NCBI GenBank assembly: GCA_016939365.1
Contig: JAFGHD010000012.1
Coordinates: 1-33,490 of the forward strand
Reading direction: 5' to 3'
Source: Bacteroidales bacterium
GTDB lineage: Bacteria > Bacteroidota > Bacteroidia > Bacteroidales > JAFGHD01
Length of the DNA stretch: 33,490 nt
Within the stretch, counting starts at the first letter, position 1. Each line of letters starts with the position of its first letter. Positions 813 to 17,670 of this stretch are shown here, in pieces. The notes below the pieces were generated by a model. It searched no databases. It was not told where the DNA came from and saw nothing but the letters and a program-made list of their open reading frames with translations. The translations under genes were made by a program, and so were the position numbers.

Positions 813-2408
813 ATGGAGCACTTTGATTTTGCGTTGGTCGACTGGTCACGGGCACAATTCGCCCTTACGGCGATGTTTCACTGGATTTTCGTTCCCCTTA
901 CCCTGGGGATCACTTTTATCATCGCCATTATGGAGACCATCTATGTCAGGACAGGAGATCCGGAATGGAAGAGGATCACGCAGTTCTGGATGAAGTTGTT
1001 CGGTATCAATTTCGCTGTAGGAGTCGCCACAGGGATCATCCTGGAATTCGAGTTTGGCACCAACTGGTCGAATTATTCATGGTTTGTGGGTGATATTTTC
1101 GGGGCGCCTCTGGCAGTGGAAGGCATCATGGCCTTTTTTCTGGAGTCGACCTTTATCGCTGTAATGTTTTTCGGCTGGAACAAGGTAAGCAAACGATTTC
1201 ACCTGACGGCTACGTGGCTGACAGCCATTGGGGCTAATTTATCCGCTTTGTGGATACTGGTGGCCAACGGGTGGATGCAGAATCCGGTGGGGATGCGCTT
1301 CAATCCAGACACCGCCCGGAATGAGATGGTGGATTTCTGGGCAGTGCTTTTTTCCCCGACAGCCATCAACAAATTTTTGCACACGGTCTCATCGGGATAT
1401 CTTCTTGCAGCCATTTTCGTCATCGGTATCAGTTCCTGGTTCCTGCTGAAAAGGAGGGAGATGTTGTTTGCCAAGCGCAGTATCATTGTGGCATCGGTTT
1501 TCGGGCTGGTGATGACACTCTTTACCATTGTCACAGGCGATGAATCGGCGCGCGAGATCGCCCGGACCCAGCCTATGAAATTCGCATCCATGGAGGGCAT
1601 GTATATCGGCAGCGACAATGCCCCCCTGGTGGCCGTCGGCATCCTGCAGGATTCGGATATCCCGCATCAGCCCAGCATGAAAGATTTCGTCTTCAGCATT
1701 GAAATCCCGAATATGCTGTCATATATGGCCTACCTCAAACCGGGCATTTTTATCCCGGGGATTCGCGACCTGGTTCATGGCAACGAAGAGGAAGGAATTC
1801 TATCCTATTTCGAAAAGATCAAACGGGGAAGGGTGGCCATCCAGACACTCAGGGAGTATAAAGATGCCCAAAACTCCGGTGACGAAACCCTGGCGGCATC
1901 GCTGGCGCTGAAATTCCAGGACCCGGTCTTCCTCGAAGAATATTTCAGATATTTCGGATATGGGTATTATTATGATGAAGATCAGGACGTTCTGGCAAGG
2001 AATGCCCATATGCTCATTCCACACGTCCCTGTATCCTTTTACAGCTTTCACCTGATGGTCATTCTGGGCGGCCATTTCCTGGCACTGATCATCGTATTCA
2101 TGATCCTCGCCATTAAAAACCGGCTGGAAGGAAAGAAATGGCTGTTTTGGACCGCCATACTTTCCATCCCGCTGGCTTATCTTGCTTCCCAGGCCGGATG
2201 GATACTGGCGGAAATGGGAAGGCAACCCTGGGTGATCCAGGATGTGATGCCGACCCTGGCTGCCGTTACCAGGATTGAGACCTCATCCGTCCAGCTTACA
2301 TTCTGGCTCTTTGCCGTAACGTTCACCGTGCTCCTGGTCGCCGAGATCAGGATCATGGCCACTCAGATCAAAAAGGGACCCAAAGAAGGAGGAAACAAAG
2401 ATGTTTGA
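813..2408 (+). CDS. cydA: Cytochrome bd ubiquinol oxidase subunit I
   Basis: 531 residues, close to the usual length of about 520. The subunit oxidises quinol on the periplasmic face and carries hemes b558, b595 and d, reducing O2 to water with high affinity. Visible key residues sit at a constant +4 offset from the E. coli numbering: His23 (heme ligand), Glu103 and Glu111 of the proton path, His190 (b558 ligand). Met415 in FHLMVILG corresponds to the second b558 ligand, and the GRQPW signature is at 469-473. The Q-loop is of the long type and keeps the Lys and Glu of QPMKFASMEG that bind quinol. It overlaps cydB by 8 nt, indicating translational coupling. It suggests a micro-aerobic or oxygen-scavenging lifestyle. 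Confidence 0.97.
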   Translation: MEHFDFALVDWSRAQFALTAMFHWIFVPLTLGITFIIAIMETIYVRTGDPEWKRITQFWMKLFGINFAVGVATGIILEFEFGTNWSNYSWFVGDIFGAPLAVEGIMAFFLESTFIAVMFFGWNKVSKRFHLTATWLTAIGANLSALWILVANGWMQNPVGMRFNPDTARNEMVDFWAVLFSPTAINKFLHTVSSGYLLAAIFVIGISSWFLLKRREMLFAKRSIIVASVFGLVMTLFTIVTGDESAREIARTQPMKFASMEGMYIGSDNAPLVAVGILQDSDIPHQPSMKDFVFSIEIPNMLSYMAYLKPGIFIPGIRDLVHGNEEEGILSYFEKIKRGRVAIQTLREYKDAQNSGDETLAASLALKFQDPVFLEEYFRYFGYGYYYDEDQDVLARNAHMLIPHVPVSFYSFHLMVILGGHFLALIIVFMILAIKNRLEGKKWLFWTAILSIPLAYLASQAGWILAEMGRQPWVIQDVMPTLAAVTRIETSSVQLTFWLFAVTFTVLLVAEIRIMATQIKKGPKEGGNKDV

Positions 2409-3531
2409 GCAACTATCACATACCGCACTCCAGCACTACTGGTGGATCATCATTTCCCTGCTGGCCGGAATCCTGGTCTTCCTGATGTTCGTGCAGGGTG
2501 GCCAGACACTGATCTACGCCCTGGGCAGGAATGAAACCCATCGCAGGATGATCGTCAACTCCCTGGGCAGAAAATGGGAATTCACCTTCACCACCCTGGT
2601 AACCTTCGGCGGTGCTTTCTTCGCATCATTCCCGCTTTTCTATTCCACCAGCTTCGGCGGAGCCTACTGGGTCTGGATGGCCATCCTGTTCGCTTTCGTG
2701 ATCCAGGCGGTGTCCTATGAGTTCAGATCAAAACGGGGTAATTTCCTCGGTAAAAAAACCTATGAGACATTTCTCTGGATCAACGGAGCATTGGGAACAA
2801 TCCTTTTGGGCACGGCAGTCGGCACGTTCTTCACAGGATCCCAATTCTATGTGAGCGATCTGAACTTCTCGGAATGGATGGGCCCCGCCCATGGTCTGGA
2901 AGCCGTGCTGAATCCCCACAATGTGCTTCTGGGGCTGGCCGTTTTTTTCCTGGCCCGCACCTTAGGAACACTCTACCTTCAAAACAATATTGAGGATGAA
3001 CCCTTACAGGACCGGATCGCCCAAAAGTTGCCTTTTCAGGCTATACCTTTCCTTTTGTTTTTCCTGGCCTGGTTGATCTGGCTGATGCTGATCAGAGGTT
3101 TCGCCTTTGACCCGGCCACAGGTGAAGTATTCCGGGAACCTTTCAAATACTTCCACAACCTGATCCAGATGCCTGTGAATACCCTGATCCTGCTGGCCGG
3201 TATAGCAGGCGTTCTGGCAGGAATTTACCTTGGTATTTTCAAACGCAGCCGGAAAGGCATCTGGTTCTCAGGCGCCGGCACCATACTTACCGTCTTTGCC
3301 CTTTTCATTCTGGCAGGATTCAATCATACTGCCTTTTACCCCTCCACATATGACCTGCAAAGTTCACTGACGATCAGAAATGCTTCGTCAAGCCACTATA
3401 CCCTCACTGCCATGAGCTATGTTTCACTGCTGGTACCCTTCGTGCTCGCATACATCTGGTACGCATGGCGCTCAATCAACAAAAAGAGGATCAATGCCTC
3501 GGAAATGGAACAGGAATTTCACAGTTACTGA
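2401..3531 (+). CDS. cydB: Cytochrome bd ubiquinol oxidase subunit II
   Basis: 376 residues with about eight to nine hydrophobic segments, the normal size for CydB, which structurally supports CydA and completes the oxidase in the inner membrane. The N-terminal region (WWIIISLLAGILVFLMFVQG) and the internal motifs GPAHGLEAVLNP and NASSSHYTLTAMSY are typical of Bacteroidota CydB. The ATG at 2401 lies inside the end of cydA and is preceded by a strong GGAGG ribosome-binding site embedded in the cydA coding sequence, so the start is secure. It is the third gene of the operon; a further small membrane ORF follows 15 nt after its stop. Confidence 0.97.
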   Translation: MFEQLSHTALQHYWWIIISLLAGILVFLMFVQGGQTLIYALGRNETHRRMIVNSLGRKWEFTFTTLVTFGGAFFASFPLFYSTSFGGAYWVWMAILFAFVIQAVSYEFRSKRGNFLGKKTYETFLWINGALGTILLGTAVGTFFTGSQFYVSDLNFSEWMGPAHGLEAVLNPHNVLLGLAVFFLARTLGTLYLQNNIEDEPLQDRIAQKLPFQAIPFLLFFLAWLIWLMLIRGFAFDPATGEVFREPFKYFHNLIQMPVNTLILLAGIAGVLAGIYLGIFKRSRKGIWFSGAGTILTVFALFILAGFNHTAFYPSTYDLQSSLTIRNASSSHYTLTAMSYVSLLVPFVLAYIWYAWRSINKKRINASEMEQEFHSY

Positions 3532-11176: not shown

Positions 11177-12118
11177 ATGACCTTCAATGTCACCATACTG
11201 GGAAGCAACTCCGCCATTCCCACCATCAGGAGGAATCCTACCGCCCAGCTGATCAATTATAATGAGCAGCTTTTCCTGATGGATTGTGCAGAGGGCACCC
11301 AGCTCCAGCTGATGCGTTACAGGATCCGGTATCAGCGCATCCGGCACATCCTGATCAGCCATCTGCATGGTGACCATTACTTCGGGCTCGTCGGTCTTCT
11401 TTCCACTTTCCATCTGCTGGGCAGAAAGGAGGGGGTAACTGTTTACGGGCCCGGCGGACTTGAAGAGATCATCCGCATGCAACTGGAGGCATCCCAGACG
11501 GCATTATGTTATACACTGGATTTCATCACGACGGATGACAGAGATTCCGGAGCCATTTACGAGGATGACAGGCTGATGATCCGCACCCTGCCGATGGACC
11601 ACCGGATTGCATGCCATGGATTCCTCTTCAGGGAAAAGAAGGGGGTGCGGCGTCTTCGAAAGGGCCATCCTGTCATCGATCAGATCCCGGTTGGTGAACA
11701 CGCCCGAATCCAGCGGGGTGCAGGTTTTACCACACCTGACGGCATCCGGCATTCAAATTCCGAGATAACGATCGATCCTGAGCCGTTAAGAACTTATGCC
11801 TGCTGTTCCGATACACGCTACAACGAATCCATCATTCCATTGCTGCAGGGTGCAGATCTGTTATATCATGAAGCTACATTTGACCATACTCTGGCGGCCG
11901 TGGCCAGGGAAAAGTATCATTCCACAGCTTCTGAAGCGGCCACCATTGCAGCAAAGGCCCGTGTCGGGAAACTGATCATCGGCCATTTCTCCAACAGGTA
12001 CGACGATCCCGCCATCCTGCTGCAGGAAGCGCAGGAAATTTTTCCCAATACCGAAACGGCTGAAGAGGGTAGGGTATTCAACGTGGAGCATTCTGCTGCT
12101 GCTCCATCTGCTCCCTGA
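11177..12118 (+). CDS. rnz: Ribonuclease Z
   Basis: 313 residues, the standard length of the short RNase Z form, a metallo-beta-lactamase-fold endonuclease that matures the 3' ends of tRNA precursors. The zinc site is clear: SHLHGDH at residues 61-67 (His62, His64, Asp66, His67), a later CCSDTRYNE aspartate and the C-terminal GHFSNRY histidine. The opening TILGSNSAIPT matches the family start (FLGTSSAVPT-like). ATG 11177 is used because earlier nearby ATGs (11167, 11170) are in another frame. It lies downstream of rpsA beyond a terminator-like hairpin, so it may have its own weak promoter or depend on read-through. Its last 41 nt overlap the convergent lipoprotein gene. Confidence 0.95.
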   Translation: MTFNVTILGSNSAIPTIRRNPTAQLINYNEQLFLMDCAEGTQLQLMRYRIRYQRIRHILISHLHGDHYFGLVGLLSTFHLLGRKEGVTVYGPGGLEEIIRMQLEASQTALCYTLDFITTDDRDSGAIYEDDRLMIRTLPMDHRIACHGFLFREKKGVRRLRKGHPVIDQIPVGEHARIQRGAGFTTPDGIRHSNSEITIDPEPLRTYACCSDTRYNESIIPLLQGADLLYHEATFDHTLAAVAREKYHSTASEAATIAAKARVGKLIIGHFSNRYDDPAILLQEAQEIFPNTETAEEGRVFNVEHSAAAPSAP

Positions 12119-12626
12119 CATCATCGGGCATCTCTCCACGGGACTTCCAGGCCTCGATCTCCCCAGAGGTCAGTATGCCTTTGGCAATCAGGAAATTCTC
12201 ATACCTGACGTTAAAGGCCCCGGCAAAACGGAGAGAATCCCTTACAGGATCTGTGTTGCTCAGGACAATGTCAGGATGGGGGATGCGCTCCAGTGTATCA
12301 CGGGTAAACTCTGTAATGAGGATCACCTTGCCGTCGCCCAGCCATTCCACCTTTGCAATGGGATACAGACCGTTTCTTCTCCGGTCAATATCCGACTGGA
12401 GGCTGTCGCCGGCAAGCCGGTAGCGGTACTCCGGCATCATTCCTTGGACCCGGTTGTAGGTCAGATAGGTGGAGTCGTGAAAGCATGCCTCAATATAAGT
12501 CCCGGACTTGTCGAGAAAAGCCCAGTCACCTGCTAACGGATTTACCTGGTCCACGCCAGAAGCGTTGTCCTGCCGGTGGCATCCGGCCAGGATCATGATC
12601 AGTAAAAGGGAAATGATATATTTCAT
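12078..12626 (-). CDS. Lipoprotein of unknown function
   Basis: 182 residues with a lipoprotein signal (MKYIISLLLIMILAGC; lipobox LAGC, Cys16), so it is a lipid-anchored envelope protein. The body begins with NPLAGDWAFLDKSGTYIEACF and continues with several beta-like stretches (TYLTYNRVQGMMPEYRYRL, KVEWLGDGKVILITEF). This resembles small lipocalin/META-type lipoproteins that start with a GxW motif, but I cannot assign a family. The C-terminal 50 residues are helical and Glu/Gln-rich. It is downstream of the FAD/Fe-S dehydrogenase gene on the same strand with a 168-nt gap, so it is probably a separate transcript. Its 3' end is antisense to the end of rnz. Confidence 0.8.
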   Translation of the reverse strand: MKYIISLLLIMILAGCHRQDNASGVDQVNPLAGDWAFLDKSGTYIEACFHDSTYLTYNRVQGMMPEYRYRLAGDSLQSDIDRRRNGLYPIAKVEWLGDGKVILITEFTRDTLERIPHPDIVLSNTDPVRDSLRFAGAFNVRYENFLIAKGILTSGEIEAWKSRGEMPDDVREQMEQQQNAPR

Positions 12627-12794: not shown

Positions 12795-15740
12795 TTAATT
12801 CTCTTTTTTCAGTGCCTGATACAGTATTTCAATTGGGTGCAGGGCCTTTCGGCCCGTACCTTCCAGTATCTGGTGTCTGCAGCTGGTTCCAGGTGCTGCG
12901 ATCATCACCTCCTCCGGGGTTTTGCGCACCTCCGGGAAGAGTACCAGCTCACCCACTTTCTGGGATAGATCGTAATGCTCCTTTTCGAAGCCGAAGGAGC
13001 CCGCCATGCCGCAACATCCCGAGGGTATCTCCTCAACGGAATAGTTCTCGGGGATGGAGAGCATGGTCCGGGTGGATGCCGTCGATGCCACAGCTTTCTG
13101 CTGGCAGTGTCCGTGAAGCCTGATCTTTGCCGCATCCTGCGTGAAGGAAGCAGATGTGATGCTACCGGAAGCGTATTCCCTGGCAATGAATTCGTCAACC
13201 ATAAGGGCATTGGCGGCAAGCTTACGTGCCGGCTCCCTGAGTTCAGGCTTTACCAGTTCCGGGTATTCATCGCGAAAGGTCAAAATGGCAGAGGGTTCGA
13301 TCCCAAGCAAAGGCGTCTGTTCCGATACAATGTCCCGGAGCAGAATGACATTCTTCTCTGCAAGACGTTTGGCCTTTCTGATCAGGCCTTTGGAGATAAA
13401 GCTTCTGCCGCTGAAGGTATGTCTGGGCACCTCCACCACATAGCCCAGGCGCTGCAACAACTTTACAGCTGTAATGCCGATGGAGGTGTCGTTGTAATCG
13501 GTAAATTCATCGGCGAACAGATACACTTTCCTTCCGGAGCCATTCCTTACCGCCTTTCTTCTCACCCATGATTTCAGTGTGATATGATAAAGCCGTGGGA
13601 TGCTCCTGCAGGGCGCAAAACCCAGAGCCCGTTTGATCAGAGGGGCCGTGAGGAATCCGGAGATCACCAGATTGGTCAGCACCGGAAAGAGGGTGCCGAT
13701 CCGGTTGATATGCCCGATATAGGCAACGGCAAGAGCACGGAGGGGAACGCCATTGGCGTCATAATAGTGCTGAAGGAACTCGGCCTTGAGCTTGGCCATG
13801 TCTATACTGGAGGGGCACTCCGATTTGCAGCCCTTACAGGACAGACAGAGGTCGAGTATGTCGTAAATCTCCCGCTGATCATAGGGATTCTTTTTCGTGG
13901 AATGGGTCAGGAACTCCCTTAGGGTATTGGCGCGGGCGCGTGTGGTATTGCGCTCATCGCGCGTGGCCATATAACTGGGACACATCGTTCCACCGGCCTT
14001 TTCGGTCTTGCGGCAGTCACCCGAACCGTTGCATTTCTCCACGCTTCTGAGTATACCCATATCCTCGGAGAAGTCGAAGATCGTAGGCAAATCCCTGGTC
14101 TCCGCCCCCGGCTGATACCTCAGAAAGGTATTCATCGGAGGGGTGTCGGTGATCTTCCCGGGATTAAATATATGAAGAGGATCCCATGCCTGCTTGATCT
14201 CACGCAGGAGAATATAGTTCCTTTCGCCGATCATCAGCGGGATGAATTCACCGCGCAGTCTGCCGTCCCCGTGCTCACCGCTGAGCGATCCCCGGTATTT
14301 CTTCACCAGCCGGGCGGTCTCGAGGGCCACGGTGTGGAAAAGTTCCACATCCTTCGGATCCTTCAGGTTGAGCACCGGTCTCAGGTGCAGCTCGCCCGTA
14401 GCGATATGCGCATAATACACGCAACTCAGGCCCAGACGCTCCATCATCCCGGAAAACTCCGCAAGATATCCAGGGAGCAGTTCAGGATTGACTGCAGTAT
14501 CCTCGACAACAGCCACCGGCTTGGCATCCCCCGGAATGTTGGACAGCACTCCCAGGCCGGCTTTTCTCAAATCCCATACCCTGCCGATATCCTTGCCGAA
14601 TAATAAAGGGAAGTAATACCCGTATCCTGCAGACCGCATCTCCTCCTCCATCCCGGCGGCTTTCTCCAGTATCTCTTCCCTTGAATCAGCTGCAAATTCC
14701 ACCAGCAGCATGGCTTCCGGATCGCCCTGAATAAAGAACCGGTTTTTTCGCTGTTCGATATTGTGACGTGTCTGCTCCATGACGACGCGGTCCATCATCT
14801 CAACAGCGCCGGGTCCGTACTTCAGGGCGATGAGGTTGGCCCGGAAGGAGTCTTTCATGGAATGACAATGAACGCATACCAATCCCTTGACCGCTGGCGG
14901 AAGTGGCACGAGGTTGAGTTTGATGGCTGTGGTGAAAGCCAATGTGCCCTCAGAGCCTGCCAGCAGCTTGCAGAAGTTAAATGGCTCTTTCCCTGGAGAA
15001 AACGGTGAGGTTTCCAGGAGCAGGTCAATGGAATAACCTGTATTTCTGCGCTTCAAGGATGGATCGGGATACTCCTTTCTTATGGATGCCTGATTTTCAG
15101 GATCTGAAAGGATCATCCGGATATTACGATATATGTGGCTTTCCAGGCTGTCGCCCTGACATTTCCTTTCAAATTCTGCATCAGGCAGCGGGCCGAAAGT
15201 GGCCTCCGTGCCATCACTGAGCAGCACCTCCAGGGATATGAGGTGGTCGCGGGTGCTGCCATAGATCAATGAATGGGCACCGCAGGCATTGTTGCCCACC
15301 ATCCCGGCAATCATACACCGGTTGGAGGTGGAAGTTTCCGGGCCGAAAAAGAGACCGAACGGCTGCAGCTGCTGGTTCAGCTCATCGAGGATCACTCCGG
15401 GCTCCACAAGAGCCCAATATTCATCAGGATTGATCTCCAGTATGCGGTTCATATAGCGGGAGACATCTACCACGATCCCACCGCCGACCACCTGTCCGGC
15501 CAGTGAGGTGCCCGCCGTTCGGGGAATCAGGGATGTGCCCTCCTCCCGTGCAAAAAGGATAAGCTTTCTGATGTCCTCCCTGTTTCGTGGAAGAGCAATG
15601 GCTACCGGCACTTCCCGGTATGCCGAGGCATCCGTGGAATACAGCAGGCGGGTAGGGTAATCCGTATGAATCTCACCTGAAAACTGTCGCTCCAGTATCC
15701 TGAATTTGTCTGTCCTATCCCGAACCTGTTCCCGAGACAT
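12795..15740 (-). CDS. FAD/Fe-S 2-hydroxyacid dehydrogenase, YdiJ-like
   Basis: 981 residues, a natural GlcD-GlcF type fusion. The N-terminal half is a VAO-type FAD-binding domain (about 20-250; TAGTSLAGQVVGGGIVVDVS, then TSNRCMIAGMVGNNACGAHS) with the FAD-oxidase C-terminal domain (to about 540; YYAHIATGELHLRP and SGEHGDGRLRGEF). The C-terminal half has two ferredoxin-type clusters (CNGSGDC near 568; CLSCKGCKSECP near 630) and cysteine-rich CCG-type motifs (GHCQQKAV; GCCGMAGSFG near 907; TSCRHQ). Length and order match E. coli/Pseudomonas YdiJ, a D-2-hydroxyglutarate dehydrogenase. D-lactate or glycolate remain possible substrates. It is 36 nt downstream of a DUF1338 gene whose family makes D-2-hydroxyglutarate, which favours 2-hydroxyglutarate oxidation to 2-oxoglutarate with electrons passed to a membrane or soluble carrier. 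Confidence 0.88.
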   Translation of the reverse strand: MSREQVRDRTDKFRILERQFSGEIHTDYPTRLLYSTDASAYREVPVAIALPRNREDIRKLILFAREEGTSLIPRTAGTSLAGQVVGGGIVVDVSRYMNRILEINPDEYWALVEPGVILDELNQQLQPFGLFFGPETSTSNRCMIAGMVGNNACGAHSLIYGSTRDHLISLEVLLSDGTEATFGPLPDAEFERKCQGDSLESHIYRNIRMILSDPENQASIRKEYPDPSLKRRNTGYSIDLLLETSPFSPGKEPFNFCKLLAGSEGTLAFTTAIKLNLVPLPPAVKGLVCVHCHSMKDSFRANLIALKYGPGAVEMMDRVVMEQTRHNIEQRKNRFFIQGDPEAMLLVEFAADSREEILEKAAGMEEEMRSAGYGYYFPLLFGKDIGRVWDLRKAGLGVLSNIPGDAKPVAVVEDTAVNPELLPGYLAEFSGMMERLGLSCVYYAHIATGELHLRPVLNLKDPKDVELFHTVALETARLVKKYRGSLSGEHGDGRLRGEFIPLMIGERNYILLREIKQAWDPLHIFNPGKITDTPPMNTFLRYQPGAETRDLPTIFDFSEDMGILRSVEKCNGSGDCRKTEKAGGTMCPSYMATRDERNTTRARANTLREFLTHSTKKNPYDQREIYDILDLCLSCKGCKSECPSSIDMAKLKAEFLQHYYDANGVPLRALAVAYIGHINRIGTLFPVLTNLVISGFLTAPLIKRALGFAPCRSIPRLYHITLKSWVRRKAVRNGSGRKVYLFADEFTDYNDTSIGITAVKLLQRLGYVVEVPRHTFSGRSFISKGLIRKAKRLAEKNVILLRDIVSEQTPLLGIEPSAILTFRDEYPELVKPELREPARKLAANALMVDEFIAREYASGSITSASFTQDAAKIRLHGHCQQKAVASTASTRTMLSIPENYSVEEIPSGCCGMAGSFGFEKEHYDLSQKVGELVLFPEVRKTPEEVMIAAPGTSCRHQILEGTGRKALHPIEILYQALKKEN

Positions 15741-15776
15741 AAAAAGAGGCTGAATAATAGGTGTATAATCGCTCCG

Positions 15777-16601
15777 TCAGGAGCTTTTTCCCTTCCTGTA
15801 GAAATCGGTGCTCTCGAATATCCTGTCCGCCGATTTGGCGATGAATCCCGAATAGAGCTTCCCGTCCCTGGCGGGGTAACGCATGGCGAATTCATAATAA
15901 CAGGATGGTATCTCAAAAGTCCCTTCGGCAAATTCCATAGGGATGATCCCGGCCCGGATGCTGGACTGCTCAAGAAGCTCCTCCGGGCTGCCTTTCACCT
16001 CCCCTCCTGAATCGTTGAGCATAAACCCGTTGTCCTTCAGGAACTGATTGACTTTCCGGATGGTGCCAAACTTCTTCAGACTGTTGATGCTCACGGTAAA
16101 GTGGTTTGCCCTGAAACCGTAGACATAAACCCAGGCGGCATACTCCGATTCCTTCCTCAGCCTTTCATAGGCTTCAAAGGATGGAATGCCCCAGCTCCTT
16201 CCTGAATGAATCAGTTCAGGCGAGCCAAGGATATCCGGAGGTATCTGGTCAATGATATCCCCGACGGTTGTTTTCAGAAAACCGCTGAACTCTTCAGTGA
16301 TCAGCTGGCTGATAAAGACACGGGGGGCAGTGGGATCACCGTCAAGCTCGAAATGCTTTGCAAAGAGGTGCTTATCCGGAAAACGGTAGGAGCCTTTTTC
16401 GGAATAACCCGCTCCGGTGAAAGGCCTGGAAAGCACATCGATTCCGACACGGGGATCATCGAAGGTACGGAATGCGATATGATCGTTCAGCACCTGTTCC
16501 CCTTCGGCAACGAAAAGATCATACAACCGTCTGGCATCCGGATTCTGACCGGTATAATCCTGCCACAGCCTGTCAAAAATCTCATCGGCATGACTCACCA
16601 T
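15777..16601 (-). CDS. DUF1338 protein, 2-oxoadipate dioxygenase/decarboxylase family
   Basis: 274 residues of the DUF1338 family. Characterised members (HglS of Pseudomonas putida and plant homologues) are Fe(II) oxygenases converting 2-oxoadipate to D-2-hydroxyglutarate with CO2 release, the last special step of lysine breakdown. The metal ligands are visible: His41 (NDHIAFRTF), His167 (RANHFTVS) and Glu237 (SCYYEFAMRYP). Arg45, four residues after the first His, matches the spacing of the substrate-binding Arg in HglS (from memory, His70/Arg74). The protein is much shorter than HglS (about 460), so it is the compact form and its substrate range could differ. The gene lies between lplA (45 nt) and the YdiJ-like dehydrogenase (36 nt), probably one operon. 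Confidence 0.88.
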   Translation of the reverse strand: MVSHADEIFDRLWQDYTGQNPDARRLYDLFVAEGEQVLNDHIAFRTFDDPRVGIDVLSRPFTGAGYSEKGSYRFPDKHLFAKHFELDGDPTAPRVFISQLITEEFSGFLKTTVGDIIDQIPPDILGSPELIHSGRSWGIPSFEAYERLRKESEYAAWVYVYGFRANHFTVSINSLKKFGTIRKVNQFLKDNGFMLNDSGGEVKGSPEELLEQSSIRAGIIPMEFAEGTFEIPSCYYEFAMRYPARDGKLYSGFIAKSADRIFESTDFYRKGKSS

Positions 16602-16646
16602 ACAAAACAGATTTATTAGGCCGGCAAAGTTATGAAACCTTTGAAA

Positions 16647-17624
16647 TCAAAAGAGGGCTGAGACCAGTCCTTCCAGAGTCTCGCCGCCCGGGCCGGATGC
16701 AAATCCGGTCTGAATGAGTGCCCTTTTCACATCGTAATAATAATGCCGGATACCGGTAAGGAGCCTGTCCAGCGACCTGATTTCAGGTGGTAGGTCATCC
16801 CCGGTCACCTGCATCTTCCGGATCACACCCTGCTCCACCTCAATGGAGATACCCACAGTCCACTTTTCAATGCGATGAGTGGTGTTCATCCTGTAAGGAG
16901 GCCCATAACCAAAGTTCCACTCCCACGTGGTATATTTCCTTTCAGCGAGCCGGCTGATGGCGCCGCTCTCCTCTGTGGTCAGGGTGCCGGCAACAGGATT
17001 GGAAAGGCGTTTCATCACAACATCCCTGATACTTCCGATGAAGGTATCGATGTCCGGCGGGCGGGCCAGGAATCCGCTGATATTCGCCACCGGGCTCCTA
17101 ACCGAGGGGATGGCACGTCCCGTATATTTTGCAGGATCGTTTTCGAGTACCGCATGCAGAAGGGTCAGGTCGGAATCAAAAAGCAGCGTCCCGTGATGGA
17201 GCACCCTGTTCCGGAATACATGCTCTGCATTGCCGGATATTTTCAGTCCATGGCATCTCAGGTCGTTCTTCCCTTCGAAGCGGGCCGGAATACCCATCTC
17301 ATTCAGGGCTTCCAGAACAGGACGGGAATGACCTTCAAAATCCACCAGTTTTCCTGCCTCACCCGTGATGATGAAGGAGAAGTTCACATTGCCGATATCG
17401 TGATATACCGTTCCGCCTCCTGAGATGCGCCGGATTACGGGAATGTCCCTTTTAGACACGAGAGGATGGTTCGTCTCCGCCATGGGATTCTGATGCTTTC
17501 CCACGACCACGCTGGATGTGCTCCTCCAAAGCAGGAAACAGTCCTCCCGGGAGTGTTTCAGCAGATACTCCTCGGCAGCCAGGTTGATAAAAGGATCCGT
17601 GGTATCCGGAAGGATGACCCGCAT
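16647..17624 (-). CDS. lplA: Lipoate-protein ligase A
   Basis: 325 residues from ATG 17624; a GTG two codons earlier in register (17627) is less likely. The enzyme activates lipoate with ATP and attaches it to the lysine of lipoyl domains in 2-oxoacid dehydrogenases and the glycine cleavage H protein. The family motif RRISGGGTVYHDIGNVNFSF (residues 66-85) and the active-site lysine in HGLKISGNA (Lys129) are present, followed by HHGTLLFDSDL. The C-terminal accessory region (about 250-325) is present, so this is the complete two-domain type. It is the first gene of the minus-strand group lplA-DUF1338-dehydrogenase and divergent from the PLP enzyme gene. A TACATTTA sequence on the minus strand upstream is one base off the -7 consensus. 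Confidence 0.92.
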   Translation of the reverse strand: MRVILPDTTDPFINLAAEEYLLKHSREDCFLLWRSTSSVVVGKHQNPMAETNHPLVSKRDIPVIRRISGGGTVYHDIGNVNFSFIITGEAGKLVDFEGHSRPVLEALNEMGIPARFEGKNDLRCHGLKISGNAEHVFRNRVLHHGTLLFDSDLTLLHAVLENDPAKYTGRAIPSVRSPVANISGFLARPPDIDTFIGSIRDVVMKRLSNPVAGTLTTEESGAISRLAERKYTTWEWNFGYGPPYRMNTTHRIEKWTVGISIEVEQGVIRKMQVTGDDLPPEIRSLDRLLTGIRHYYYDVKRALIQTGFASGPGGETLEGLVSALF

Positions 17625-17670
17625 CACATTCGATTTGACGTGTAAATGTAGCTCATTTGGTGCTTCTGCC

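Follow-up and report, generated by a model that had tools for sequence, protein, structure and literature searches.

We report that three genes on the minus strand of a Bacteroidales bacterium contig (JAFGHD010000012.1), at positions 12795-17624 of the 33,490-nt window, i.e., the whole stretch of DNA analyzed here, very probably constitute the terminal section of a saccharopine-type, O2-dependent route of L-lysine degradation. In transcription order they are lplA, for a lipoate-protein ligase (16647..17627; 326 aa from a GTG, with the next ATG at 17624), a gene for a DUF1338 protein predicted to be a FLO7-like 2-oxoadipate dioxygenase/decarboxylase (hydroxyglutarate synthase, HGLS; 15777..16601, 274 aa), and a gene for a YdiJ-like FAD/Fe-S dehydrogenase predicted to act on D-2-hydroxyglutarate (12795..15740, 981 aa). 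All three are intact open reading frames placed head to tail, and the coordinates agree with the first-pass annotation of the window, which had placed the last two on one strand, 36 nt apart, after a lipoate ligase. A single transcript is suggested by the short gaps, only 45 nt between lplA and the HGLS gene and 36 nt between the HGLS and dehydrogenase genes. The two-enzyme end module formed by HGLS and the YdiJ-like enzyme is well supported by homology, gene linkage and genome content.

The HGLS protein matches Pfam family PF07063 with 98.5 bits (cut-off 25); among solved structures the nearest is 3lho, a Shewanella protein (E 1e-82), and the nearest biochemically tested enzyme is rice FLO7 (6w1k, E 3e-34). 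The AlphaFold2 model (mean pLDDT 88.5) has the VOC-type fold of the solved DUF1338 structures, with 3lho and 6w1k as its best matches in the PDB (TM 0.87 to both). In the alignment with FLO7, the predicted Fe(II) ligands His41 (minus-strand codon 16479..16481), His167 (16101..16103) and Glu237 (15891..15893) fall on the metal residues, and the specificity arginine Arg45 (16467..16469), predicted to hold the distal carboxylate of 2-oxoadipate, takes the position of FLO7 Arg64 and HglS Arg74. These four residues are invariant across 108 non-redundant HGLS relatives, bearing out the active site that had been proposed from the window. The name HglS-type given at that time is right as to active site and family, but rice FLO7, and not Pseudomonas putida HglS, is its closest relative among tested enzymes: a phmmer search with the HGLS protein recovered neither Pseudomonas HglS nor Escherichia coli YdcJ at E<=1, and the TM of the model to these two is only about 0.5-0.6. 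The DUF1338 enzymes of P. putida, E. coli, rice and Arabidopsis all turn 2-oxoadipate into 2-hydroxyglutarate, and this activity on 2-oxoadipate has been predicted for every family member with the specificity arginine (Thompson et al., PMC7286885). On the grounds of homology and active-site residues, the HGLS protein is predicted to convert 2-oxoadipate into D-2-hydroxyglutarate in an Fe(II)/O2-dependent reaction.

The adjoining dehydrogenase carries the full YdiJ architecture in one chain, with a FAD_binding_4 domain (residues 46-180; 15201..15605), a FAD-oxidase_C domain (residues 306-530; 14151..14825), a region for two 4Fe-4S clusters (Fer4_17/Fer4_8, the former at residues 569-647; 13800..14036) and a GlpC-like C-terminus, all on the minus strand. 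E. coli YdiJ aligns with it over the full length at 31% identity (434 bits). For YdiJ, strict specificity for D-2-hydroxyglutarate is established (PMC9504171), and the YdiJ-like enzyme is predicted to prefer this substrate over D-lactate.

Gene neighborhoods were compared in 40 other genomes of the order, drawn evenly, and on 80 named contigs, among which near relatives are over-represented because these contigs score best against the query. Once near-identical copies were removed, 67 loci extended 5 kb or more to either side of HGLS. A YdiJ gene was found within 5 kb in 43 of them, in 40 cases on the same strand and downstream, an LplA gene in 32, and both in 27; in the evenly drawn sample YdiJ lies near HGLS in 20/40, the window counted. 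Such a span, 5 kb to either side, amounts to far less than 1% of these genomes, which excludes chance linkage. The pair, whose conservation the first-pass annotation had proposed to survey, is conserved in many families of the order, and YdiJ adjoins HGLS in Bacteroidales as well as in other Bacteroidota (loci L304, L294, L137, L142, L145 and L146). In L304, from a different family, the gap between the two genes is 7 nt, and in the Flavobacteriaceae loci L137, L142, L145 and L146 they diverge around an Lrp/AsnC regulator.

Genome content also points to lysine. We compared 40 genomes of the order with HGLS and 40 without it; the Fisher p-values given here ignore shared ancestry, with no phylogenetic correction, and genome size. 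Lysine-ketoglutarate reductase (LKR) was present in 40/40 HGLS-positive genomes, in two as fragments only, vs 18/40 HGLS-negative ones (p 8e-9), YdiJ in 40/40 vs 23/40 (p 2e-6), piperideine-6-carboxylate dehydrogenase (P6CDH) in 27/40 vs 6/40 (p 3e-6), and a high-scoring saccharopine dehydrogenase in 37/40 vs 20/40 (p 4e-5). Matches to Sacchrp_dh_C with low scores (about 142-177 bits; most of them 380-420 aa long) were kept out of this last class as probable carboxynorspermidine synthases. YdiJ also co-occurs with LKR, being found in 57 of the 58 LKR-positive genomes but in 6 of the 22 LKR-negative ones, and an LKR-type protein from the order aligns with the LKR half of human AASS at 1e-73. 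The genomes with LKR and without HGLS contain no PF07063 match, so no DUF1338 protein of greater length takes its place there. The LAT-type lysine aminotransferase model TIGR03251 gave no match in the 80 genomes, and its controls were also silent, so that absence is not demonstrated. In one locus of the order, L147, P6CDH adjoins HGLS (765 bits vs a cut-off of 730); no other lysine gene was recognized as a recurrent neighbor in the P6CDH neighborhoods of the order.

In the window's own genome (G000, an assembly 97.5% complete, in 197 contigs), we found LKR on contig C153 (2206-3510; 59% to a protein of the order that in turn matches human AASS LKR), an L-glutamate-forming saccharopine dehydrogenase on C65 (2e-88 to saccharopine reductase, matching the other AASS half) and SucAB on C142, all on contigs other than that of the window. 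The presence of LKR and saccharopine dehydrogenase in the same genome largely answers the objection, raised in the first-pass annotation, that no pathway upstream of 2-oxoadipate might exist.

Among about 390 other Bacteroidota sampled, HGLS was detected in 22, and its neighbors there point to lysine. P6CDH, called on 54-62% BLAST identity to the protein of L147, directly follows HGLS in L291, L295 and L306 (one genus), L300 and L303. In L303, HGLS lies 6 nt from P6CDH and is overlapped by a lysine-dehydrogenase-like gene, which L301 carries as well; the closest structure to this gene is 3abi (PH1688), "uncharacterized" in the PDB, which we take to be an L-lysine dehydrogenase. LKR and saccharopine dehydrogenase are found near HGLS in L288.

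In the route that we propose, LKR would condense lysine with 2-oxoglutarate to saccharopine, and saccharopine dehydrogenase would split this into aminoadipate semialdehyde (AASA), both functions being assigned by homology. From AASA, 2-oxoadipate would be reached through an aldehyde dehydrogenase and an aminotransferase, whose genes are unassigned in the window's genome. The FLO7-like HGLS would decarboxylate and hydroxylate 2-oxoadipate with Fe(II) and O2, yielding D-2-hydroxyglutarate. The YdiJ-like FAD/Fe-S enzyme would then oxidize D-2-hydroxyglutarate to 2-oxoglutarate, which may return to the LKR step or enter SucAB, whose lipoyl group LplA can plausibly attach. The earlier claim that the gene linkage supports an O2-dependent lysine route stands as regards the active site, the conserved pairing and the presence of LKR, saccharopine dehydrogenase and SucAB, while for the step from AASA to aminoadipate no gene was recognized in this genome.

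Several observations weigh against this route. Neither the window's genome nor that of a genus mate contains a P6CDH/AASADH equivalog at the NF050084 cut-off, an absence that for the window's genome is uncertain because its assembly is 97.5% complete and divided into 197 contigs, and 13/40 HGLS-positive genomes of the order also lack the equivalog. The four aldehyde dehydrogenases of the window's genome (lactaldehyde-dehydrogenase-like, methylmalonate-semialdehyde type, PruA and one unplaced) include no P6CDH equivalog; that PruA might act on AASA is a guess. The aminoadipate aminotransferase is unassigned in this genome, its family being too broad for an unambiguous call. With its best NCBIfam match, NF049975, the dehydrogenase scores 611.7 bits, far below the equivalog cut-off of 1350, so the earlier designation as a YdiJ-type enzyme holds for architecture and full-length similarity and is reduced to YdiJ-like. 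Its occurrence in 23/40 HGLS-negative genomes indicates that YdiJ has another use. Beyond the order, no association of LKR with HGLS is seen (10/22 HGLS-positive vs 18/54 HGLS-negative genomes), nor is there one in the part of that sample belonging to the same class (9/13 vs 14/15). Finally, nothing in the analysis links lplA to lysine specifically, and its role is unproven.

Some of these points would fit a supply of 2-oxoadipate from pipecolate, D-lysine, aminoadipate or the environment and not from LKR and saccharopine dehydrogenase, a source consistent with the missing P6CDH equivalog, with the frequent occurrence of HGLS without LKR outside the order and with an HGLS gene of Deinococcus that adjoins a FAD amine oxidoreductase gene. 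We consider it improbable, given that LKR accompanies HGLS in every HGLS-positive genome sampled in the order and that the window's genome encodes both enzymes. It is also rather unlikely that, with the HGLS step as proposed, the YdiJ-like enzyme mainly recycles the D-2-hydroxyglutarate by-product of serine synthesis (SerA), lysine being a secondary source. Such recycling has been shown for D-2-hydroxyglutarate dehydrogenases and proposed for E. coli YdiJ (PMC9504171), and it would suit the HGLS-negative genomes with YdiJ, but it predicts neither the tight linkage to HGLS in many families nor the co-occurrence of YdiJ with LKR described above. Very little probability attaches to a FAD/Fe-S fusion D-lactate or glycolate dehydrogenase that adjoins HGLS by accident: the FAD half has D-lactate and glycolate oxidases among its relatives and the identity to E. 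coli YdiJ is modest, but the best family match by far is the D-2-hydroxyglutarate dehydrogenase YdiJ, and a YdiJ-like gene is present in every sampled HGLS-positive genome of the order and adjoins HGLS both within and beyond it. That the gene order is a passive, functionally meaningless remnant of ancestral synteny, as the recurrence of lplA, rnz and rpsA in the neighborhood might suggest, is scarcely credible, in view of the genome-level co-occurrence, the varied arrangements of the HGLS-YdiJ pair (adjacent, with a 409-500 aa gene between, or divergent with the Lrp regulator) and its recurrence in further families and orders, where the flanking genes are quite different. The saccharopine-type lysine route is hence the reading that we retain.

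The ligase gene of the cluster is assigned by family, matching Pfam LplA-B_cat (2e-57) and Lip_prot_lig_C, passing the NCBIfam TIGR00545 lipoate-protein ligase cut-off (307.8 vs 280 bits) and matching 1vqz in the PDB (E 2e-58). Within the order, lplA is nearly as frequent a neighbor of HGLS as YdiJ. Lipoylation of 2-oxoglutarate dehydrogenase by LplA is plausible only; the idea is made possible by the conserved position of lplA and by the need for lipoate of SucAB and of a second lipoate-requiring E2 in the window's genome.

Elsewhere in the window, a small predicted lipoprotein with no Pfam match is encoded 3′ of the dehydrogenase on the same strand (12078..12626, minus strand) and is a possible operon member; its homolog adjoins YdiJ in L037, L038, L083 and L085. 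On the plus strand, cytochrome bd oxidase subunits I and II (813..3531; genes at 813-2408 and 2401-3531) provide a context of O2 respiration, as had been noted earlier for a high-affinity oxidase.

Other neighbors of HGLS were recorded in passing. An Lrp/AsnC-type regulator, possibly lysine-responsive, diverges from HGLS in L137, L142, L145, L146, L291, L295 and L306 (by Pfam in L142, by eye in the others). At L095:9811-11217 and in 13 other loci, a gene for a lipoprotein-like protein of 409-500 aa, weakly similar to esterases/PHB depolymerases, separates HGLS from YdiJ, often without gaps. In L055, L064, L069 and L070, a cluster with kinase genes, acetate/butyrate kinase-like by eye, diverges from HGLS. 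A Na+-symporter-like gene (NSS-type by eye) follows HGLS at L133:5117-6766 and LKR-SDH at L288:12429-13982, the two products sharing 46% identity, and is a candidate lysine importer. On second replicons of Pseudoalteromonas (L259, L262), a short HGLS directly follows ast (arginine succinyltransferase) genes, a position that suggests a link of the ast operon to lysine or aminoadipate. On Deinococcus plasmids (L260, L261), HGLS lies between FAD oxidoreductase and aldehyde dehydrogenase genes, neither of which reaches a curated cut-off in L260. The plasmid matches of the dehydrogenase gave no informative linkage.

All parts of the proposed route belong to known families, and the chemistry is already known from plants and Pseudomonas. 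Rice FLO7 and Arabidopsis AT1G07040, the plant hydroxyglutarate synthases, have the same metal triad and arginine and act after the saccharopine (LKR/SDH) route, as proposed here, whereas the window's HGLS is bacterial, shorter and adjacent to a FAD/Fe-S dehydrogenase gene, its activity being predicted. P. putida HglS (PP_5260) and E. coli YdcJ share with it the Pfam family, the HHE+Arg site and the predicted reaction but are only distantly similar, and P. putida arrives at 2-oxoadipate through D-lysine catabolism. The YdiJ proteins of E. coli and Pantoea ananatis are the same full-length fusion of a FAD (GlcD-like) part with a GlpC-like Fe-S part, from which the window's enzyme differs by its curated score and its linkage to HGLS. 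In comparison with human AASS and plant LKR-SDH, the LKR and saccharopine dehydrogenase of the window's genome are each homologous over the full length to one half of AASS, and they are encoded by two separate genes on different contigs.

A literature search, incomplete for key papers, retrieved none that connects DUF1338 with lysine degradation of the saccharopine type in Bacteroidota. As a tentative and rather doubtful extension, free-living Bacteroidales may run a plant-type lysine route in which about one-third of them, including this genus, use an unrecognized P6CDH substitute for the AASA step and lplA is a functional member of the cluster. Gene order and genome content together associate a FLO7-like DUF1338 enzyme with the degradation of lysine in a large bacterial order; the semialdehyde dehydrogenase is left as one definite gap in the route. 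The system also provides an inexpensive test of the general claim that DUF1338 proteins with the arginine all use 2-oxoadipate as substrate. The D-2-hydroxyglutarate branch of lysine catabolism would extend to Bacteroidota, implying an amino-acid route that requires O2 in a lineage often regarded as anaerobic.

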